From a virus, in IMG/VR virus record IMGVR_UViG_3300043811_000163, positions 1-56,533 of that record: 56,533 nt of DNA; one strand, given 5' to 3'. The notes under the pieces are model-generated. The model saw only the letters and a program-made list of their open reading frames with translations. It searched no databases and was not told where the DNA came from. Shown here piece by piece: positions 13,234-22,101 of this stretch (its first letter is position 1; every line of letters begins with the position of its first letter). The position numbers were made by a program, and so were the translations under genes.

Positions 13234-13514
13234 CCATCGGACGAGAGAAAGGCACCGTCATGATCGATATCGACGTCACGATCGAGATTCGGGCCCGCGC
13301 GCAGTGCAGCGAGTGCGGGCGATCGATCGAGACGCGGCACGAACTCGACGAGGTCGAGGCCCAGCGCATGTCAGTCAATCTGCTCGGTCACGTCGTGAAG
13401 GACGTACGCGAGAAAGTGGACCAGGAGATGCAGTGCCGAGGCTGGCGCGAGGTTTGCGGTCGATGTAGAGACAAGGACGTACCGGGAGACGGAAGCCGTG
13501 GACCTTCGCAGTGA
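13230..13514 (+). CDS. Zinc-binding hypothetical protein
   Basis: A 94-residue protein. QCSECGRSIETRHE and VCGRCRDKD supply two CxxC pairs separated by a helix of about 45 residues. The ATG at 13230 gives the ATGA overlap; a second ATG at 13260 would drop ten basic residues. Unknown role. Confidence 0.55.
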   Translation: MTIGREKGTVMIDIDVTIEIRARAQCSECGRSIETRHELDEVEAQRMSVNLLGHVVKDVREKVDQEMQCRGWREVCGRCRDKDVPGDGSRGPSQ

Positions 13515-14037
13515 TCTCGAGCAGCGCGCGGCGGATTTCGCGACCGCGGCGCACAGTCTGATCGGGCAGACTCGCAAGTACACGGGAGAGCCATACTGGA
13601 CGCACTGCCGCGCCGTGGCCGAAATCGTACGAACCGTGCCGCACTCCGAATCCATGCTGTCGGCCGCTTGGCTTCACGACACAGTGGAAGACGTCGGGGT
13701 GCCGCTATCGTTGCTCGAGGCGAAGTTCGGGCGGGACGTGGCCGAACTCGTCGAGATGTTGACCGACGTGTCGAAGCCGAGCGATGGCAATCGCGCAGTT
13801 CGCAAGCATCTCGACCTAGCGCACACCGCGCGCGCGAGCCCGTCGGCAAAGACGATCAAGCTGGCCGATTTACTGGATAATACCCGGTCGATAGTCGACA
13901 GAGATCCGAAGTTCGCCACGGTCTACCTTCCTGAAAAATTGGCCCTGCTCGAGGTCTTGCACGAAGGCGACGCCACGCTCTGGGCCCGCGCACACAAGTT
14001 GGCCCTGGACGGCTTGGCCAAACTGAGGGAGACTTGA
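13498..14037 (+). CDS. MESH1-like (p)ppGpp hydrolase (HD domain)
   Basis: A 179-residue single-domain HD hydrolase of the SpoT/MESH1 type, which removes pyrophosphate from the alarmones ppGpp and pppGpp. The metal and catalytic residues are in place: His36 (EPYWTHCRAV), His60-Asp61 with Glu64-Asp65 (AAWLHDTVED), and Asp124 with Asn128 (KLADLLDNT). Length matches the family's small stand-alone hydrolases; there is no synthetase or regulatory domain. GTG start at 13498, overlapping the upstream gene by 17 bp. In a phage it could lower host stringent-response signals during infection. A RelA/SpoT-like module also occurs in the portal polyprotein downstream. Confidence 0.85.
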   Translation: MDLRSDLEQRAADFATAAHSLIGQTRKYTGEPYWTHCRAVAEIVRTVPHSESMLSAAWLHDTVEDVGVPLSLLEAKFGRDVAELVEMLTDVSKPSDGNRAVRKHLDLAHTARASPSAKTIKLADLLDNTRSIVDRDPKFATVYLPEKLALLEVLHEGDATLWARAHKLALDGLAKLRET

Positions 14038-14040
14038 ACC

Positions 14041-14478
14041 ATGGCCGAGGAAGAAACCAGATTCTACGACTTCGATAACATGCCAGCCTTCGTCAAGGGC
14101 GGCGCGTTCCGACTGGTCACGCCTGCCGGCGAGAAGCGTATCGAGGACATCGCGCGATTCCTGCAAGACGCCCAGCCTATTTCGAAAGAGCAGTTCGATC
14201 GGCTGTGCGCGGGGGGTCGAGCCGATGCGGGCGAGTCGAAGAAGGCTGGACTCGAGCCGCTGAAGGACGAGAAGGCCGATGCGGTCCCTGGCCCAGGTCT
14301 CGACACGGTTGTCATCGATGACATCATCGCAAACCCAGGCAAGTACCGAAAGCAGTGGGCCGAAGACACGCAGCATCAGTATCCTGGCAAGTACACGCAA
14401 GAGCAGCTCGACGCATCGTGGGATCAGCTGGCGCATCAGGTCGGATTGCCGACTGCGAAAGAACTCGACGCGCGTTAG
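14041..14478 (+). CDS. Hypothetical protein at the end of the rightward block
   Basis: A 145-residue acidic protein, no recognised domain; the C-terminal third is helical (YTQEQLDASWDQLAHQVGL). GGGAG precedes the ATG. It converges with the portal gene, the two overlapping by 4 bp (TTAG shared), with no terminator between them. Confidence 0.6.
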   Translation: MAEEETRFYDFDNMPAFVKGGAFRLVTPAGEKRIEDIARFLQDAQPISKEQFDRLCAGGRADAGESKKAGLEPLKDEKADAVPGPGLDTVVIDDIIANPGKYRKQWAEDTQHQYPGKYTQEQLDASWDQLAHQVGLPTAKELDAR

Positions 14479-17400
14479 CCTTTCGGCGGCGTATAACTCA
14501 TCGTGTAGTAGCTAGGGTGGTCGAATTCCTTGTAATCCCATCCATTGGCCGCGTACTCTGGATTGAACGAGTTCTCGGATGTCGGTTTGAATCCGACCGA
14601 TTCGTAGAGCTTGTTCAAACGCGGGCCGTAGCACTCGACGTAGTTCACTCCGGCATTGCGCACGACGTGGTCGAGTAGCTTGAGCCCGGCGCCCTTCTCT
14701 CCACCCTGGTTGAATAGCGCGGTCGCCTCGACGCGACCATCTCCGTGATCGTGAACTGCAACGCCGGCTTTGCCGTCGGGCGTCGTGAACAGTTTCATGT
14801 GCGCGAGGTCGTCTTCGCTGTAGTGCGAGACATGATTCGTGAACTTTGAGCCTTCGAACGCCTTATCGAAGGCGGCCTTGAACTCGTGGGGGCTCGCGGT
14901 CTTTGGCGTGAACGAAGTCGCAGGAGACGCACTGCCGCCCGCGCCGAATCGGCCTTGCTCGTCGCGAGGATGCTTGCCCTCATCCCAATCGCCCGCATCC
15001 TGCCGAACTTTCGACCAGACACCATCGTATAGAGCTTTCGACTTGGCGGTTTCTCGATCCACGGTCGCGCGTTCGTCAGGCGTGAGGTCGCGACCTTTAG
15101 CAGCGGCTTGGATATTTCGAATCGTCTCGTACATTCGATGCCCAGGGCCATTTTTCGCAGCGAGCAGTGGTTTCAAATGGACCTGCAGTTCGCCAATGTG
15201 CCCGCTCGGATATTTGACGTTCATCATCACGTCGCGATAGCCGAGTGCTGTCGGGTTGCTCATCCGATCTTTGGGCATGCGCGCGAGCGTGATGCCTTTC
15301 TGCTTCATGGCCTCAATTACGCCGCGAACGTCCTTGACCGAGTCGACGGCCACGGTAGCGCGGACTACGTCACCAAGCTTGCTCCAATCGCCATTGTAGT
15401 CGGCATTGACCTTTTGCTCGGCACGCGCTTCGTGCTTGATGGGTCCGATCCCGACAACGGGCCCGGGATGACTGAGGTCGAGTTTGTCGTTGAACTCTTG
15501 CTCGCTCATGTTGAGGTCGCCACGAACGACTTTCGCACCGATGGCTTGGGCGACGCCTTTGCCGCGGTCGAGCAGATCCAACTGTTCTTCATGAATGGCA
15601 GGTGCCGCCTTGAAGAGTGCTTCCTTCGTGCGTTCGGGCTGCGCGAACTCTTTCGGGACGCTTGCGAGCTCGCTCTCTTTGAAGAGAGGCTCGCCGTGGA
15701 TGCTTTCGGCAGGCGATGCGCTGCTGCCTCCCGAGCCGAATCGCCCGCGCTCGTCTCGTGGCTGGTCGGCATCGAAATCGCTGCGCGTGCTGTCGCGTTT
15801 TGGTACTCCTCCGTAATCCGAGATTAGAAACTTCCCGGACTGTCCACGACCCCACTGGTTCGAATAGGCGAAGTCGGAGAGATCAAGCTTCGGAAGCTTC
15901 GAGCTTAGCTCCTTCATGGCGGTCAAGAATTGGCCAGCGGACTTCATCTTGTCGCCGGACTTGCCCCCATGAATCGCCTGATACGTAGCCGCGAACAGCC
16001 AGTCCTTGCCGTGAACATCTTGATCCCCGCCCCAAGGGTCTTTGATTGTGACCGTGTACGATTTCTTTTGGTCGGCCTTCGAGATGCCAAAGTGATCGGC
16101 CAATTGCGCCGATGTCACCGGCTCCACTTTCTCCTGCCGTACCCAAGAGTAATCTGGTGCGTGCTCTGTGATCTTGGCTAGGATATCGCTCTTGCTCGAA
16201 GCCTCTGCTTCTGCTCGATTGTCTTTCTTGGCTTTCGCGTTCTTGGCGACCTTGATGACAGTGTTCCCATCTTCATAGACTTTACGGGACGCGCCTTCGC
16301 CGAGGACTTTGAGTTTCGAAGTGTCAGGATGCTCGGAGACGGTACGGGGCTCTGTGCTACCGCCACCTTCCCCAAACTGTCCGTTGGCGGCGCGCGGCTG
16401 ATCGTCCGAGTAATCAGCTTTTGGGGTCGAGCCTTCGCTCTCACCTCCGGCGCTATCGATGAGCGCCTGCAGCTTGTCCTCGTCGAGCGAGTCGAGGTAG
16501 TCCGCTGCAGCTTCCGTCACGAGCTGCGCCAGCCATTCTTCGGGATCCGCGTCCGCATCCGAATCGTATCGGAGAGCGTCGATCGCGTCGTGAATAGCAC
16601 CACCGAGGTCTTCACCGAGATTGTATCCAGCGAACGACAATCCCTTCTCGGTCATCTTCTCGAGCGCGTGGTGCGCGATCTGGTGAGCGATCTTTTCGGA
16701 GACGAGCCTGACGGCTTCATGGCCGATCGCCTCGAGAGGCAGCAATCCGACCACGTGGCCGGCGACCACGCTGGCAGCGATCCCAATCGCGACCTTCGCG
16801 ATGGCGTGCTTCTGCTCTTTGGTCACCGGCTGTCGCGTCACGAAATTCTTCACCCCGACAATGGCGTTCTTATACTCGCCGATCTTCTCTTTGACCTCGT
16901 GCAGCGCGGCCTTTCCGATCTCTTTCGCTCCCGACCGTAGCACGGAGCCGACATGCTTCAGGCTCTCCTTGAGTTTGGTCAGGTGAATGCGCGTCAGACG
17001 AGATTGCGCGGCGTGTTCGTGTGCGCCGGATCGCTCTGGCTTGACGCGGCTGGCTGTACCACCCGATCCGCCCGCGGAGAACTTGCCGGTCTCGTCGCGC
17101 GGATGGTCTTCCTCGACGAAGTCGTCGGCGCGCGTCTCCGGCAAGATCGCTTGCACGGTCTTTCTGAAAGTGTGCGCGCCCGACAGAAGCTCTCCGCTCG
17201 ACAACCACATCACGGTGGTATTCGGTTCTGCCGCAAAGGCTTCTCCCACGAACTCGAGCGCCTCGAACACATTGACCTTGCGACCGTCGACCGGAGACAG
17301 AACCGACGGCAGCTTGCGGAGCTTGGTCGCGGTCACCCCGGTTTCTTCACGCAGTTCGCGGATCGCCGCGTGCTGCGCGGTCTCACCCTCGTCGATCATT

Positions 17401-19820
17401 CCGCCCGGGAACGCGAACTCGTGCGGGAACTCGGGACGCGTGACCGTCAGATATTTGCCTTGCTCGTTTTTCACCACGACGATCGAGGCTTGCCCCTCTC
17501 GATCATCGGCTGCGTCATTGGTCGCAAACGGATTGTGCATGGCGTGCGCGCCGGCTTTGGCCATGTGATCGTTGGCGATCTGGAAATGGCGCGCGGAGGC
17601 ATCGGAATGCCGGGCTCGATCGTCCACGGACACGCGATGCCCGGATGCCATCGCTGCGCGTCTATTGCCTTCGCGAATGTGCGCGACGCTGGCTTCCATG
17701 TGGGCGGCTGCAGCTTCCCGGTGCGCAGGCAAGGTGCCGAGCTTGTAGGCCAGTTCGGACGCTTCATTTGCAGCCTTGGTCCCGTGATCGATCCACTGCT
17801 TCGATCCAGGATCTCTCGACTGGTCCGGGTCGTGCGCGTCGAGCGCATCCTTCTGTATGGGCTCCTGCGGAGGCTTCGGCGTCAAAGCTTCGGCCTTGCC
17901 GATGTGCTTGGCGGCTTCTGCCGTGTTTCCTACGCCGAGATGGGCATTGGCTGCACGCAAATGGAGCTTGGCGAGATTGGTGGCTTTCTGCGGAGGCGTG
18001 AGCGGTCCAGGCTTCTTCGGAGCCACTGCGGGGCCCACAGCGGGCTTCGCCTTGACCTCCGGAGGGATCGGTTCCTTCTTCTTCTCGTCTCCGGCGCCCG
18101 GGGCTTGATCCGGCTGCGATTCGTCCTCGGCCGGATTGCCGGCTCCCTTGTCGGGCGGCGTTCCCTGGCCTTCCCCTGCGGGAGCCACGACCGAATGAAG
18201 CGCACTTCCGGGCAGAGGCACAGTGGGCGATTGACCTTCCGGAGTTCCACCCCCGGCGCCCCCACCCAGCGCCTGCACTTGAGCCGATGCGGAAGGATCG
18301 TTCTCGTACGGATCGAACTTGGTCTTCTCTTCGATCTCTTCTTCGATTTCCTCGACGTCGATCGACTGGTAGATGTCGCTGAGCGTGAGCGCGACTTGCT
18401 CGGCGGTCACGACCTCGTTTTGGATGTAGATCTGATCGCGCTGCGCGTTGGTGAATCGCGTCTTCGCGAGCTCGTCATCGGTCGGAGCGTAGAGCGGATG
18501 GAAATGGACCTTGAAATCGACCGGCTGTCCCTTGAAGGGAGAATCATGGGCGAGCGCGATGAGTCGGTAGAGCCGTCGGATTTTCGGAGCAAGGAAGTTG
18601 ACTTGCTCGTTGGCGATCGTGTCGTACCACTTGATTCGATCCGACTCTCCGGTCGCGTTCATTCCGGCCGGGCTCATGCCGAAGAGTTCGGTCAACGGCA
18701 TATCGAACGCCGCAGCGAGCCGCTGCATGATGCGGTCGATCGCGTCGGGGATCCCCGTCATCGGGGTCACCACGCGCGTGAAATCTTCTTCGCCGCCCGC
18801 ATCGAGCGCCACGCCGTGCATGACGCTGCGCGTGCGCTCCATTAGCTCGAGACGAGCTCGGAGCTTGCCTTCCTGGCCCGCTGTGATCGCGTTGAAGAGG
18901 CCCTTGAGTTTGAAGATGCCTTGCGACGCGTCCGAGATCAGATACGCGAGAGCATCGAAGGATCCATCGCACTGCCGGAGCACTTCGTAGCCGCGCTGCA
19001 GTACCGACCAGGACCAACCCGCGAGCGTTTGCCGCGTGATGATGTCGGGCTCGACTCCGTCGAATCGAATCAGGCGGCTCTCGTGGACGTTGAGAATCGA
19101 GGTTGCGATGTTCGCGAGCTTGGCCTTGCTCTTGGTCTTGTAGCCGAACTTGGTTCCGTCGGAGCTTCGGTACGACGAGGTCGCGACCGCGTTGGCGATG
19201 AGATACGTTCTCGGCTGCCCATACTTGGGCTGCATCGGGTCGGAGTAGTAGTCCTGAACGTACGCGAACCTTCGATCGATCTGATTGATGAAGTCGAAGC
19301 TCTTGATGTTCTTTTCGTCCAGCGGCTCCCACGGCTCTCGTCCGTCATCGATTCCCAGGATGAGCAGCGCGCCGCCGTACTGCCGGCCGAAGGTCAAGCC
19401 TTGGTGCAGCCGCAGATCGCATTGCAATCGCTCGGTCGCGTATTCGCTCAGGTCTTGAATCTTCGACTTGTCGAGCTCTCCGGCCTTTTTGCTCTCGAGC
19501 TCGTAGCCGCGCCGGAACATCTCGTTCGGACGCTTCTCCACGGCTTTCGCGGCGAGATCGTTGCCGGAGACGAGATCGGTGATCTCGACGTCGTTCAGGC
19601 GCCAAGGCGTTTCGAAGTACCCGGCTCGGGTCTTGTCCGCGATCGTGCCGAGCCCGGTCTGGTAGTTGACCCAGCGGTCTAGCTTTTGCTCGAGAGCGAA
19701 GATGCGGGTTTCCGCGTCCTCTCTAGAAGCAAGCGTCTGCGCGGCGGCTCGGCGCAGATCCGATCCGTCATTGGCCGGCGATGCCGCCGGGACTGCGGCT
19801 TCGGCCGGACCATGCTCCAT
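14475..19820 (-). CDS. Portal protein fused to Nudix, kinase-like, RelA/SpoT-like and GNAT-like modules
   Basis: A 1781-residue protein; ordinary DUF1073 portals have about 450-550 residues. Residues 40-480 are a DUF1073-type portal, the ring through which DNA enters and leaves the capsid. Residues 505-610 are a Pro/Gly-rich linker; 612-760 contain Ala/His-rich helical repeats. Residues 775-895 are a Nudix hydrolase with a complete Nudix box (Gly807, Glu813, Arg821-Glu822, Glu825-Glu826, Gly828). Residues 930-1130 are helical with a membrane-like stretch near 1005-1040. Residues 1165-1345 look kinase-like (LGEGASRKVY loop, Lys1190, SDYGG). Residues 1460-1600 resemble RelA/SpoT (Arg1487, KDRMSNPTALGYRD, ELQVH). 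Residues 1640-1781 look GNAT-like. Four PRDExGRFGxGGS-type linkers separate the last modules. The gene runs opposite to all other head genes. Confidence 0.85.
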   Translation of the reverse strand: MEHGPAEAAVPAASPANDGSDLRRAAAQTLASREDAETRIFALEQKLDRWVNYQTGLGTIADKTRAGYFETPWRLNDVEITDLVSGNDLAAKAVEKRPNEMFRRGYELESKKAGELDKSKIQDLSEYATERLQCDLRLHQGLTFGRQYGGALLILGIDDGREPWEPLDEKNIKSFDFINQIDRRFAYVQDYYSDPMQPKYGQPRTYLIANAVATSSYRSSDGTKFGYKTKSKAKLANIATSILNVHESRLIRFDGVEPDIITRQTLAGWSWSVLQRGYEVLRQCDGSFDALAYLISDASQGIFKLKGLFNAITAGQEGKLRARLELMERTRSVMHGVALDAGGEEDFTRVVTPMTGIPDAIDRIMQRLAAAFDMPLTELFGMSPAGMNATGESDRIKWYDTIANEQVNFLAPKIRRLYRLIALAHDSPFKGQPVDFKVHFHPLYAPTDDELAKTRFTNAQRDQIYIQNEVVTAEQVALTLSDIYQSIDVEEIEEEIEEKTKFDPYENDPSASAQVQALGGGAGGGTPEGQSPTVPLPGSALHSVVAPAGEGQGTPPDKGAGNPAEDESQPDQAPGAGDEKKKEPIPPEVKAKPAVGPAVAPKKPGPLTPPQKATNLAKLHLRAANAHLGVGNTAEAAKHIGKAEALTPKPPQEPIQKDALDAHDPDQSRDPGSKQWIDHGTKAANEASELAYKLGTLPAHREAAAAHMEASVAHIREGNRRAAMASGHRVSVDDRARHSDASARHFQIANDHMAKAGAHAMHNPFATNDAADDREGQASIVVVKNEQGKYLTVTRPEFPHEFAFPGGMIDEGETAQHAAIRELREETGVTATKLRKLPSVLSPVDGRKVNVFEALEFVGEAFAAEPNTTVMWLSSGELLSGAHTFRKTVQAILPETRADDFVEEDHPRDETGKFSAGGSGGTASRVKPERSGAHEHAAQSRLTRIHLTKLKESLKHVGSVLRSGAKEIGKAALHEVKEKIGEYKNAIVGVKNFVTRQPVTKEQKHAIAKVAIGIAASVVAGHVVGLLPLEAIGHEAVRLVSEKIAHQIAHHALEKMTEKGLSFAGYNLGEDLGGAIHDAIDALRYDSDADADPEEWLAQLVTEAAADYLDSLDEDKLQALIDSAGGESEGSTPKADYSDDQPRAANGQFGEGGGSTEPRTVSEHPDTSKLKVLGEGASRKVYEDGNTVIKVAKNAKAKKDNRAEAEASSKSDILAKITEHAPDYSWVRQEKVEPVTSAQLADHFGISKADQKKSYTVTIKDPWGGDQDVHGKDWLFAATYQAIHGGKSGDKMKSAGQFLTAMKELSSKLPKLDLSDFAYSNQWGRGQSGKFLISDYGGVPKRDSTRSDFDADQPRDERGRFGSGGSSASPAESIHGEPLFKESELASVPKEFAQPERTKEALFKAAPAIHEEQLDLLDRGKGVAQAIGAKVVRGDLNMSEQEFNDKLDLSHPGPVVGIGPIKHEARAEQKVNADYNGDWSKLGDVVRATVAVDSVKDVRGVIEAMKQKGITLARMPKDRMSNPTALGYRDVMMNVKYPSGHIGELQVHLKPLLAAKNGPGHRMYETIRNIQAAAKGRDLTPDERATVDRETAKSKALYDGVWSKVRQDAGDWDEGKHPRDEQGRFGAGGSASPATSFTPKTASPHEFKAAFDKAFEGSKFTNHVSHYSEDDLAHMKLFTTPDGKAGVAVHDHGDGRVEATALFNQGGEKGAGLKLLDHVVRNAGVNYVECYGPRLNKLYESVGFKPTSENSFNPEYAANGWDYKEFDHPSYYTMSYTPPKG

Positions 19821-19829
19821 GCAATCGCA

Positions 19830-19835
19830 AACGTA
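19830..19835 (-). promoter_or_regulatory. Possible late -10 element for the portal gene
   Basis: Leftward CCTACGTTTGCG, with TACGTT ending 9 nt before the portal ATG. It matches the late motif used by two rightward genes (21334 and 31464) and sits back to back with the rightward copy at 19846, so the two head operons would diverge from one 40-bp region. The portal ATG has no Shine-Dalgarno site. Confidence 0.5.
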
Positions 19836-19845
19836 GGTACGAGCC

Positions 19846-19851
19846 TACTTT
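19846..19851 (+). promoter_or_regulatory. Late leaderless-type promoter element (TACTTT)
   Basis: CCTACTTT then CGCGGC then ATG: 6 nt between the element and the start codon, with no Shine-Dalgarno site. Transcription from the expected +1 would begin at the A of ATG. Confidence 0.6.
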
Positions 19852-19857
19852 CGCGGC

Positions 19858-22101
19858 ATGGCGGAAACTGTCGCTGACGCACCTCTCTCGGCCAAAGAGA
19901 CCGAGGACATGCCCGAGGCCCATTTCGCGGATCCGGAAGGAAAACGCTTCCCTCTATACGATCCGAAGACCAAGGCGCTCAGCGCGGAGCACGTCAACGC
20001 AGCGGGTTCCTACGCGGAAAAAATGCACAATTCTGGTGAGATCTCCGATGCGAAATACAAGGAGATCATCGCCAAGGTCAACAAGGCGAAAAAGACGCTG
20101 AAGATCGGCGATTTCGCGGACGACAAGAAAGACTACGACCGCACGCAAGCCGCCAATCCCGTCGAGGACGAGGCCGTTCAGAAATGGACGGCGGCCTCGA
20201 AAGACATCCACCGCGCCGACAATCCTCCGAGCTGGGTCGATGATGAAGCCACGTGGGAGAAGGCCAAGGAGGCGGTCGGCAAGGACTGGGACAAGTACGA
20301 CGATCCGTACGCGGTTGTCGTCTCGGTCTACAAGAACATGGGCGGATCGATCGGTGGCGGAGGCAAATCCGACCATGCCGATGCGGGTGAGCATTTTGGC
20401 GACACGGGGCTCGACCAACCCGGTTGGGAGCATGTCCGCCGCGTCGATTTGGCCTCGGGTTCAGTCGGCGAGTCCCGGACGACTCCGCAAGGCGGCATCA
20501 TCGCGCGCGCGAACCTCACTCGGACAGGGGTCTTCGACTACCGCCAGCCGGACGGCACGATCCGCCGAGAACTGAGACACCCCGACGAGGTCTTCGACAA
20601 GAAGAGCCTCGATTCCTTGGCTCATGCGCCGCTCACGATCGATCACCCCGACAAGGTCACGCCGCACAACTACAAGCGCGTCACGGTCGGCCATGTCGCG
20701 GGAACCCCGCATCGGGCAGGCAAATTCGTGCAGCAAGACGTGCTCGTGCAGGACGCGGATGCGATCGATGCGGCCAAGAAGGGCAAGCTGCAGGAGCTCT
20801 CGTGCGGCTACGAGTGCGCCATTGATCCCACGCCGGGCGACTACAACGGCGAGAAGTACGATGCGATCCAACGTCGCATTCGGTATAACCATGTAGCCGC
20901 GGGTCCGGCAGGCTGGGGAAGAGCCGGCCCCGAAGTGCGCATGCACCTCGACAGTGGTGCGGCCATCAGCTTGGCGCCCGATGCGGCTGCGTCGCCATCG
21001 GCCATGGCGCGCGAGGATGCCTCGCCTGGCAGTACGCACTCGGCGGCCGCGAATGCTCGAAGCGCAGAAGTCAAAGCCTTCGAAGATCATCTGCAGCCCA
21101 AATCGAAGACGGAACACAAGAAGGCGGCCGATGCCCATATGCAGGCTGCAGAAGCCCACGATTACGCGGCGATTCACGGCGATCCGTCGATGAAAGCCGA
21201 TCACGAAAAGGCCGCTGCCGATCATCGACAAAAGTCCGCAGATCACATTGCAGATTGCAATAAGCTCGACGAGGGTCACGCCGATCCCCGACCCGATCCA
21301 GGGTATGGGACTACGGCCGATAGTCGAGCGCCCTACGTTCGCGCTATGCCCGTCGAAACCGACGAAGAGAAGCGCCGCAAGGCCGAAGAGGAAGCGCGTG
21401 CAGAGAGGGTGCGGATCGACTCCGAACTCGCTCAGCTGCGCAGTGACAACGAACGACTCCGCGGCGAGAACACCGCGATGAAGTCGTCTAGCACGAGCGC
21501 CACGCTCGCCGCACAGCAGCAGATCGAAGCGCAGCGCATGGACGCCGCGTTCGACGAGATGTTCGCCGCGGTCGATGCAGGCACGCGCTACGTGAAGGAC
21601 TTCAACCGGTACCGCGCCGATGGCTCTCGCAAGAGTGTCTCGGACATCCGGCGCGAAGTCGTTGCGGCGCTCAAGCCGTCGATCCGGATCGACGCCAAGG
21701 AGACCGACGCGTTCATCGCGGGCGTCTTCTCCACGATCGTGCAGGAGAGGGAAGCAGCGGACCGAGGACGCGCCGCGATGGCGTTCGCGTCTTCGCCGCT
21801 CATCACGCCGGCCATGTCCCACGCCGACGCGGGTCGAAGAATGGGCATGAAGAAGCCCGATCGCGCCGCGGACCCGGACGACGAACCGGACGACGACGAG
21901 CCCGACGCCGAGACCAAGAAGGCGCAGGACAAGATGTTCCAGAAAATGAAGGACGCGTACAAGACCCGCGACAAGGGCGGGATGTCGCGCTTCTCGGCTC
22001 GGGATCGTCGCAAGGGAGACGGCCGCGCTCCCAATCCGACTCCTGCCTTCAACGGTGGGAATCAGGGCGACTTCAACGGCGGCTTCGGCGGAGGAATGTG
22101 A
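19858..22101 (+). CDS. Prohead protease (DUF2213-like) fused to scaffold-type C-terminus
   Basis: A 747-residue head-maturation protein. Residues 18-85 and 95-163 are two small helical domains often seen before phage proteases (the second with NPPSWVDDEATWEKAKEAV). Residues 205-365 are a DUF2213-like protease domain; candidate active-site residues are His263 (DHP), His279 (VGHV) and Ser315 (ELSCGY). Residues 400-470 are Ala/His-rich helices resembling those in the portal tail. Residues 498-747 are acidic coiled coil and low-complexity sequence like a scaffolding protein. An internal ATG at 21346 preceded by a late-type element could make the scaffold alone. Order protease, cement, major capsid is standard for this phage type. 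Confidence 0.8.
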   Translation: MAETVADAPLSAKETEDMPEAHFADPEGKRFPLYDPKTKALSAEHVNAAGSYAEKMHNSGEISDAKYKEIIAKVNKAKKTLKIGDFADDKKDYDRTQAANPVEDEAVQKWTAASKDIHRADNPPSWVDDEATWEKAKEAVGKDWDKYDDPYAVVVSVYKNMGGSIGGGGKSDHADAGEHFGDTGLDQPGWEHVRRVDLASGSVGESRTTPQGGIIARANLTRTGVFDYRQPDGTIRRELRHPDEVFDKKSLDSLAHAPLTIDHPDKVTPHNYKRVTVGHVAGTPHRAGKFVQQDVLVQDADAIDAAKKGKLQELSCGYECAIDPTPGDYNGEKYDAIQRRIRYNHVAAGPAGWGRAGPEVRMHLDSGAAISLAPDAAASPSAMAREDASPGSTHSAAANARSAEVKAFEDHLQPKSKTEHKKAADAHMQAAEAHDYAAIHGDPSMKADHEKAAADHRQKSADHIADCNKLDEGHADPRPDPGYGTTADSRAPYVRAMPVETDEEKRRKAEEEARAERVRIDSELAQLRSDNERLRGENTAMKSSSTSATLAAQQQIEAQRMDAAFDEMFAAVDAGTRYVKDFNRYRADGSRKSVSDIRREVVAALKPSIRIDAKETDAFIAGVFSTIVQEREAADRGRAAMAFASSPLITPAMSHADAGRRMGMKKPDRAADPDDEPDDDEPDAETKKAQDKMFQKMKDAYKTRDKGGMSRFSARDRRKGDGRAPNPTPAFNGGNQGDFNGGFGGGM
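21334..21339 (+). promoter_or_regulatory. Late element inside the protease gene (TACGTT)
   Basis: CCCTACGTT, 6 nt, then an in-frame ATG at 21346 (Met497 of the long protein). Same geometry as the other leaderless-type starts. Confidence 0.5.
21346..22101 (+). CDS. Probable nested scaffolding protein (in frame within the protease gene)
   Basis: A predicted 251-residue product sharing the C-terminus of the long protein, as lambda Nu3 does within gene C. It begins PVETDEEKRRKAEEEARAE, a charged coiled coil, has a helical middle, and ends in a Gly/Asn-rich tail. No separate scaffold gene is found between protease and capsid, which favours this reading. Inference from the internal late-type start. 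Confidence 0.5.
   Translation: MPVETDEEKRRKAEEEARAERVRIDSELAQLRSDNERLRGENTAMKSSSTSATLAAQQQIEAQRMDAAFDEMFAAVDAGTRYVKDFNRYRADGSRKSVSDIRREVVAALKPSIRIDAKETDAFIAGVFSTIVQEREAADRGRAAMAFASSPLITPAMSHADAGRRMGMKKPDRAADPDDEPDDDEPDAETKKAQDKMFQKMKDAYKTRDKGGMSRFSARDRRKGDGRAPNPTPAFNGGNQGDFNGGFGGGM

Follow-up and report, generated by a model that had tools for sequence, protein, structure and literature searches.

Why should a phage portal protein, a structural component of the head, run on without a stop codon into a series of enzyme-like modules? This question is raised by a gene in the window, which is the whole 56,533-nt stretch of viral DNA analysed here (IMG/VR record IMGVR_UViG_3300043811_000163, positions 1 to 56,533). 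An earlier note, made from the sequence alone, had described one stop-free frame leading from the portal through all C-terminal modules, and the open reading frame (ORF) was found exactly as claimed. Codon statistics favored its frame over the other five in nine of nine segments, which makes a frameshift unlikely. A search within the ORF for start codons preceded by a Shine-Dalgarno-like sequence found none. The frameshift check named in the note thus came out in favor of a fusion rather than separate genes, and separate translation of the modules from internal starts was rejected. An invertible segment around the minus-strand portal was likewise discarded, as none of the 25 longest pairs of inverted repeats flanked it convincingly. 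The features of the gene, from the portal domain to the C-terminus, are as follows.

14475..19820, minus strand: portal fusion gene, 1781 aa, stop codon included; single open frame, coding along its whole length
18432..19583, minus strand: Phage_portal_3 (DUF1073) portal domain, aa 80–463 (PF06381, 1.1e-70; phrog_146, 9e-92)
17991..18320, minus strand: P/E/G-rich spacer, aa 501–610 (sequence composition)
17511..17990, minus strand: His/Ala-rich helical repeats, aa 611–770 (sequence; weak TPR_2 match, 0.14)
17136..17510, minus strand: Nudix hydrolase module, aa 771–895 (PF00293, 1.3e-15; Nudix matches in the PDB)
17061..17117, minus strand: junction motif 1, EEDHPRDETGKFSAGGSGG, motif at aa 907
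16416..17060, minus strand: helical module with one hydrophobic stretch, aa 921–1135 (no relatives)
16359..16415, minus strand: junction motif 2, SDDQPRAANGQFGEGGGST, motif at aa 1142
15783..16358, minus strand: kinase-like module, aa 1155–1346, with G1176, R1179, K1190, D1316, D1335 and G1337 (phrog_4301, 3e-8; family alignment; Foldseek)
15723..15779, minus strand: junction motif 3, DADQPRDERGRFGSGGSS, motif at aa 1354
14985..15710, minus strand: RelA/SpoT synthetase module of the Tas1/Apk type, aa 1371–1612, with K1462, R1466, K1470, D1484, R1487, Y1528, E1544 and H1561 (profile and model)
14931..14987, minus strand: junction motif 4, DEGKHPRDEQGRFGAGGSAS, motif at aa 1618
14478..14903, minus strand: GNAT-like module, aa 1640–1781 (phrog_2563, 0.003; Acetyltransf_10 in family members, 7.6e-4)

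The DUF1073-type portal identity proposed earlier was confirmed: PF06381 matched over the whole domain (238.6 bits against a curated cut-off of 33.8), and the PDB homologues were portal structures of 12 chains. The closest relative of the whole portal protein (L001) reached only 38% and has no modules, and most portal relatives stop 40–80 aa past the domain with nothing of the kind at the C-terminus. The module order given before was also correct, but it had missed the P/E/G-rich and His/Ala-rich stretches between the portal and the Nudix module. Repeats similar to the His/Ala-rich ones also occur in the adjoining head protease.

Three of the enzyme-like modules could be assigned with differing firmness. 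The Nudix box is complete at aa 807–829 (G807x5E813x7R821E822LREETGV, fitting GX5EX7REUXEEXGU; PF00293, 58 bits), and the intact Nudix module claimed earlier is therefore real at the sequence level. The kinase-like assignment was upheld as well: in an alignment of eight family members, the Gly loop, the beta-3 Lys of VIKVAKN, a catalytic-type Asp and DYG were invariant, and Foldseek matches of a fair model (pLDDT 64) were overwhelmingly kinases at a probability of about 1. The VIKVAKN pattern alone brought up its relatives; searches with the single sequence, by tblastn and in 369 genomes gave none or one weak match. For the GNAT-like module, the fold called in the note appears right, with moderate support from relatives, some of which match GNAT families of Pfam, and from the family profile, whose best PDB match was the acetyltransferase YjaB (0.04); the virus's own copy had no match in a Pfam search. 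The acetyl-CoA motif A, [QR]xxGx[GA], is degraded in this family. The helical module had no detectable relatives.

The RelA/SpoT identity of aa 1371–1612 is settled by profile, predicted structure and active site, and is the best supported among the modules. The module matched the type VI secretion (T6SS) toxin Tas1 at 2.4e-17 by profile, and its AlphaFold model (pLDDT 93) had Tas1 as the best Foldseek match, followed by further RSH matches. All active-site motifs are kept; in an alignment of 14 synthetases, 28 columns were invariant, among them those of the catalytic Asp and Glu. The earlier assignment was thus correct in kind, but its limits, 1460–1600, were too narrow. In Pfam RelA_SpoT the copy in the fusion scored 14.8 bits (0.035), below the gathering score of 27, and a homologue in Bordetella phage PHB04 passed with 30.5 bits. 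By the signatures defined for Apk and RSH enzymes (PMC12226406), syn2 (R-A-T) and syn4 (V-H) resemble the R-Y-T and Y-H of Apk, and syn3 (DxM) is neither GxN nor the guanosine-reading SxH. In a synthetase tree the module grouped with stand-alone synthetases (L129 and L130), apart from those fused to two other divergent portals (L140 and L141), and the portal–synthetase fusions therefore look independent in origin.

The nearest solved relative in sequence and fold is the T6SS effector Tas1/Apk1 (PDB 6ox6). Tas1 is carried on a PAAR protein and is bound by its immunity protein Tis1, whereas here only a hydrolase is evident. Homologues of Tas1 occur attached to delivery domains of many kinds (Sec signal, T7SS, XopAD, MuF, DUF4157 and Rhs/PAAR; PMC12691689), and the delivery domains listed there for exported alarmone synthetases omit the portal.

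Two genes were annotated on the 3′ side of the portal gene.

13498..14037, plus strand: RelA/SpoT-type HD alarmone hydrolase gene (HD_4, 2.3e-17; MESH1/Rel hydrolases, e-12 to e-13)
14041..14478, plus strand: 145-aa ORF separating the hydrolase gene from the portal gene, toward which it is transcribed (no family match found)

The hydrolase gene is separated from the end of the portal gene by 437 bp and is on the opposite strand, outside its operon. Its product has the H...HD(T)xED...KxxDxxxN motifs in alignment (HD_4, 63.6 bits) and resembles Rel/MESH1 hydrolases more closely than it does the solved (p)ppApp hydrolase (0.039). A DatZ-type dATPase was considered for this gene and dropped, since the matches were RelA/SpoT/MESH1 hydrolases. 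A similar order is found in Bordetella phage vB_BbrM_PHB04 (MF663786), where a portal gene is followed by a synthetase (38% identical to the module), a small ORF and an HD hydrolase (38% identical), although that portal belongs to another family and is not fused to the synthetase. The 145-aa ORF showed no similarity to the small ORF of PHB04; its position fits a possible second immunity protein. With the virus's own HD hydrolase as sole query, a hydrolase gene accompanied this type of synthetase at 8 of 15 phage loci (two of the eight being near-copies of each other and one PHB04 itself) and at 0 of 188 control loci. The paired loci include PHB04-type phages and L141, and the pairing was also seen in all four cellular Tas1-like (T6SS-like) loci. 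An HD_4 search of the synthetase-bearing records L129, L130, L132, L137 and L140, some of them fragments, gave no match.

The recurrent pairing suggests that the HD hydrolase is probably an immunity or detoxifying partner of the synthetase module; its opposite strand, its closeness to Rel/MESH1 hydrolases and the synthetase-bearing records that gave no HD_4 match speak against this. The earlier note had proposed effectors against host metabolism or defense; the effector reading is favored by context, but the adjoining hydrolase gene suggests a toxin–immunity pair instead of a generic metabolism effector. It is rather unlikely that the gene encodes a conventional alarmone hydrolase of phages which lowers host (p)ppGpp and is unrelated to the portal module. 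Its top PDB matches are (p)ppGpp hydrolases, lone genes of this sort are known in phages (Adele, PMC12846349), and it runs toward the portal gene rather than in the same direction; against this stands the pairing with the synthetase described above, unmatched in the controls.

The modules also recur on other head proteins. Besides the synthetase fusions of L140 (portal, 1e-72) and L141 (portal, 1e-22), a related portal (L222) carries an ADP-ribosyltransferase (2.4e-22) behind a variant junction, and a stand-alone synthetase homologue follows the portal gene in PHB04-type phages. Two minor capsid proteins, one of the MuF type (L147) and one of the VG15 type (UtzChips), and large polyvalent proteins contain the GNAT-like module; such carriers are considered to be packaged (PMC5512222). 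This context supports the notion of virion-borne effectors put forward in the note; its further claims, that all modules are effectors, that twelve intact copies are present per virion and that they enter the host, are unsupported.

At each of the four module junctions after the Nudix module lies a short motif, [HQ]PR[DA]xxG[RKQ]F..GG, which, like the hydrolase gene, had escaped the earlier note. In other phages it links portals to the same type of synthetase or to an ADP-ribosyltransferase, and it is common to portal, MuF and head-protease fusions and to other long phage proteins. It is present also in proteins without relation to toxins, and may therefore be merely a spacer. A candidate enzyme for cutting at these junctions is encoded next to the portal gene, in divergent orientation and 37 bp away.

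19858..22101, plus strand: head maturation protease (DUF2213; phrog_530, 1.2e-63; PF09979, 6.7e-40)

Portal C-termini are on the capsid side of the ring, so the cassettes would point into the head interior once the ring is assembled. The portal normally remains in the head, also after DNA release, and portals are not known to leave it; portal-borne delivery would thus need a release step in which the C-terminal part is cut off or unfolded, most simply by cleavage at the PRDxxGRF junctions by the neighboring head protease. Considering the sequence evidence as a whole, we postulate that the portal probably serves as the head anchor of a polymorphic or polyvalent effector, whose modules would travel inside the virion and enter the next cell with the DNA, and whose synthetase would be held in check by the hydrolase. 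In the producing cell, the hydrolase would clear the alarmone made by the synthetase. In the next cell, the synthetase would make (p)ppApp (less likely (p)ppGpp, or tRNA pyrophosphorylation), drain ATP and check the growth of the host or of competitors, and the Nudix, kinase-like and GNAT-like modules would act on other targets.

Activity late in infection within the producing cell, before or without packaging and with the portal merely localizing the enzymes (for example for host nucleotide reprogramming or competitor exclusion), is unlikely. Active sites are kept, portals are not known to exit the head, and the hydrolase would be required in that cell; however, a 12-copy head protein would be a wasteful carrier for an intracellular enzyme, and the modules are found again on polyvalent proteins and on minor capsid proteins of the MuF and VG15 types, which are considered to be packaged (PMC5512222). 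We regard as quite improbable that the C-terminal part is non-catalytic filler for folding or inner head architecture: the degraded acetyl-CoA motif and the helical part without relatives would fit, but the Nudix box, the kinase Lys, Asp and DYG and the synthetase motifs are all intact, most portal relatives do without such an extension, and the synthetase travels with a hydrolase. An assembly error or frameshift joining separate genes, as the separate synthetase gene of PHB04 might suggest, has a negligible probability and is already largely refuted by the unbroken coding signal, the lack of internal starts, the independent portal–synthetase fusions elsewhere and the uniform kind of the junction motifs.

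The proposed portal-anchored effector is best read as a variant of the MuF-toxin and polyvalent-protein theme; portal fusions with PBECR, 2H and InPase domains have already been reported (PMC5512222, Iyer et al. 2017). MuF-Apk2 toxins produce (p)ppApp and are neutralized by the neighboring hydrolase Aph1 (PMC12226406, PMC11699363). The MuF polymorphic toxins of the Apk2 family, with IapK and Aph1 (PMC12226406, PMC5576092, PMC11699363), likewise have an N-terminal phage head protein, a C-terminal RelA/SpoT-type synthetase and an alarmone hydrolase gene alongside. Here, in contrast, the anchor is a portal without an N-terminal MuF domain (MuF is encoded by a gene of its own, at 108 kb of the contig), several further modules are attached, and the hydrolase is on the other strand. 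MuF toxins are also tied to temperate phages, whereas no integrase match was found in this virus. By analogy, the portal fusion would work like a MuF polymorphic toxin, but it is not one. With Nudix, kinase-like, RSH and GNAT-like modules after the portal, it is a virion-associated protein of a portal–terminase phage with at least two conflict-type domains, as polyvalent proteins are. PMC5512222 describes 2 to 15 such domains per virion protein and lists RelA/SpoT, GNAT and kinase among them. In its searched text, RelA/SpoT appears in fusions with MuF and in none with a portal, and neither a hydrolase partner nor the junction motif is mentioned.

A portal-fused toxin would have a fixed place and copy number in the virion, making its packaging, cutting and delivery directly measurable, and it bears on how MuF-type toxins are carried and released. 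The junction motif offers a sequence handle for further virion-borne effectors and a testable candidate site for the head protease. With synthetase and hydrolase repeatedly paired in phages, the (p)ppApp toxin–immunity theme of T6SS and MuF also reaches genes linked to portals. More tentatively, portals could be a general, little-noticed platform for polymorphic toxins, with PRDxxGRF..GG marking where cassettes dock and possibly where a protease cuts, and with a Tas1-like synthetase and other enzymes held at portal stoichiometry and fired with the DNA. This virus may carry ready-made weapons in every particle.

The portal gene of this phage is an uninterrupted minus-strand frame of 1781 codons (14475-19820), confirming that the portal runs without a stop into a string of further modules, as the earlier note had claimed. 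By codon usage, with other genes of the phage as the training set, each of the gene's nine segments scored better in this frame than in any of the other five, and a start codon with a Shine-Dalgarno-like sequence was nowhere detected inside the gene; both results argue against a frameshift having joined separate genes. The source contig, a 113,473-base IMG/VR record, shows myovirus features (tail sheath, terminase, and E217/Pam3-like cement and capsid genes), carries at 108 kb a MuF gene separate from the portal fusion, and yielded no phage-integrase match. The portal gene lies on the strand opposite to the remaining head and tail genes; it diverges from the protease gene across 37 bp (19821-19857) containing an imperfect palindrome (CGAAAGTAGGCTCGTACCTACGTTTGCG). 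The modules of the fusion and the adjoining hydrolase gene are as follows.

aa 80-463: DUF1073 portal (1.1e-70; Pam3 and E217 portals among the best PDB matches)
aa 771-895: Nudix hydrolase, box intact
aa 1155-1346: kinase-like module (motif conservation and Foldseek)
aa 1371-1612: RelA/SpoT synthetase (profile, AlphaFold and Foldseek)
aa 1640-1781: GNAT-like module (evidence weaker than for the other modules)
13498-14037, plus strand: RelA/SpoT-type HD alarmone hydrolase gene, adjoining the portal gene (HD_4, 2.3e-17)

The portal, Nudix, kinase-like and RelA/SpoT assignments of the earlier note all held, and its GNAT-like assignment stands with less support. In Pfam, the single synthetase sequence scored 0.035; a 14-member profile matched Tas1 (2.4e-17) and, less strongly, (p)ppGpp synthetases (1e-3 to 1e-4), and the model of the module (pLDDT 93) retrieved Tas1 first in Foldseek (2.9e-9), followed by small alarmone synthetases. 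For the kinase-like module, whose relatives were obtained solely by a scan for the pattern VIKVAKN, the Gly loop, Lys, catalytic-type Asp and DYG were invariant in an alignment of eight family sequences; its fair AlphaFold model (pLDDT 64) matched overwhelmingly kinases, with APH and choline kinases on top. No relatives were detected for the part described as membrane-like (aa 921-1135). His/Ala-rich helical repeats (HxxAAxxH) are common to portal aa 611-770 and about aa 410-475 of the head protease (19858-22101, plus strand), and a similar stretch follows a PRDExGRF junction in the head protease of another locus, L069.

The fusion has four copies of the motif [HQ]PR[DA]xxG[RKQ]F, with Gly-rich sequence after each, at aa 907, 1142, 1354 and 1618; every copy lies between two modules, and even one copy arose in 13 of 20,000 composition-preserving shuffles of the protein. 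A related DNA pattern did not find it elsewhere in the contig. Among the matches listed from a PRDExGRF scan of IMG/VR, 29 long ORFs included four that match MuF, two that match portals, one that matches the S78 head protease, and others that match ADP-ribosyltransferase, zeta toxin, Tpt1, PI3/4-kinase-like or GNAT families; in the shorter ORFs listed, the motif was mostly near one end, within low-complexity sequence. Given these families and positions, the motif is, judged by its sequence distribution, a joint used repeatedly in phage proteins, with many head proteins among them. It may mark a site of cleavage, serve in binding to the capsid, or simply be a spacer. A portal of another family (L123:2701-5121) continues through the same junction into a PI3/4-kinase-like or HipA-like module, and head-type proteins at L048 and L073 contain, in addition to the PRDExGRF joint, other recurrent joint-like motifs such as GHEFHGNQWT and AFHGNQHTGG.

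An alignment query collected 14 viral and six genomic synthetase loci. At L140 the junction connects a portal (1.2e-72) to the synthetase, and at L141, of which L142 is a near-copy, it does so for a more distant portal (1e-22). Phages of the PHB04 type (L126, L133-L139, L162) encode the synthetase separately, directly after a portal of another family, and at L131 the synthetase forms the end of a polyvalent protein that has four junction-like motifs. In the tree, the synthetase of the present fusion grouped with the stand-alone L129 and L130 (96/94 and 95/92), apart from the fused L140 and L141, pointing to more than one origin of the portal-synthetase fusion, although long branches leave the tree uncertain. 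Most DUF1073 portals retrieved with a portal-only query stop 38-80 aa past the domain. Others extend further: the 1164-aa portals of L222 and L223 carry the junction variant HPKDESGKF and then an ADP-ribosyltransferase (2.4e-22), the 826-aa portal of L226 has the junction QPRQDDGKF, that of L229 (same record as L140) carries the synthetase, and that of L221 has a 202-aa proline-rich tail without a junction. One portal anchor with exchangeable C-terminal toxins, as predicted here, matches the way in which polymorphic toxins are laid out.

The HD hydrolase, a gene product that the earlier note does not mention, matches Rel, MESH1 and HD-domain protein 3 with values between 1e-12 and 1e-13, and is 38% identical to the hydrolase located after the synthetase of Bordetella phage PHB04. 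With the window's own hydrolase as sole query, 8 of the 15 phage synthetase loci proved to contain a homologue, a count somewhat inflated by redundancy (L133 = L134; L135 = PHB04), versus 0 of 188 control phage loci. One additional record, that of L131, has a homologue 27 kb from the synthetase, and five synthetase-bearing records have none; in cellular Tas1-like loci, an HD gene lies about 200 bp downstream in four of four. In a characterized system, Apk2 makes (p)ppApp, Aph1 hydrolyses it, and IapK blocks the toxin (PMC12226406; PMC11699363).

In the same contig, ATAACCTCTAGT is repeated at 1803, 3207, 5390, 6669 and 8003 (plus) and 10195 (minus); allowing up to two mismatches, the window holds seven matches versus 0.84 expected, a number reached in 0 of 100 shuffles, and the repeats may act as a promoter or operator of the phage. 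Beyond the window, an adenylosuccinate synthetase (L003:7774-9033; contig 63774-65033, minus strand; phrog_1211, 2-aminoadenylosuccinate synthetase-like) keeps the GDEGKG aspartate and has a possible link to PurZ/Z-DNA. The contig (L003-L005 and part of the window) also encodes a TROVE/Ro60 vWA RNA-binding protein, a KilA-N protein, pentapeptide repeats and a YqaJ recombinase.

A 2017 paper described polyvalent proteins in which enzymes (PBECR, 2H and InPase) are fused to portals, and reported RelA/SpoT on MuF (PMC5512222); in the present phage RelA/SpoT is on the portal. MuF-Apk2 toxins have already been characterized (PMC12226406; PMC11699363), and the delivery domains given in a 2025 survey of Tas1 homologues do not include a portal (PMC12691689). 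In the open-access literature searched, we found no portal-synthetase fusion with a nearby hydrolase, no such five-module string and no description of the common junction motif.

On sequence evidence, the phage combines a portal-fusion architecture with conserved active sites and a recurrent synthetase-hydrolase pairing. Two of the three syn motifs are Apk-like and the third is neither Apk nor RSH; since only two are Apk-like, the identity of the synthetase product is uncertain; tRNA pyrophosphorylation, the reaction known from FaRel2 and CapRel, is a less likely alternative to (p)ppApp synthesis. Because portal C-termini face the head interior, the modules would be packaged into the virion, and in the producing cell the hydrolase would detoxify the synthetase product. 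Proteolysis at the junctions, suggested by the DUF2213 head protease gene 37 bp from the portal gene, would release the modules, which would be ejected along with the DNA and act on host adenylates.
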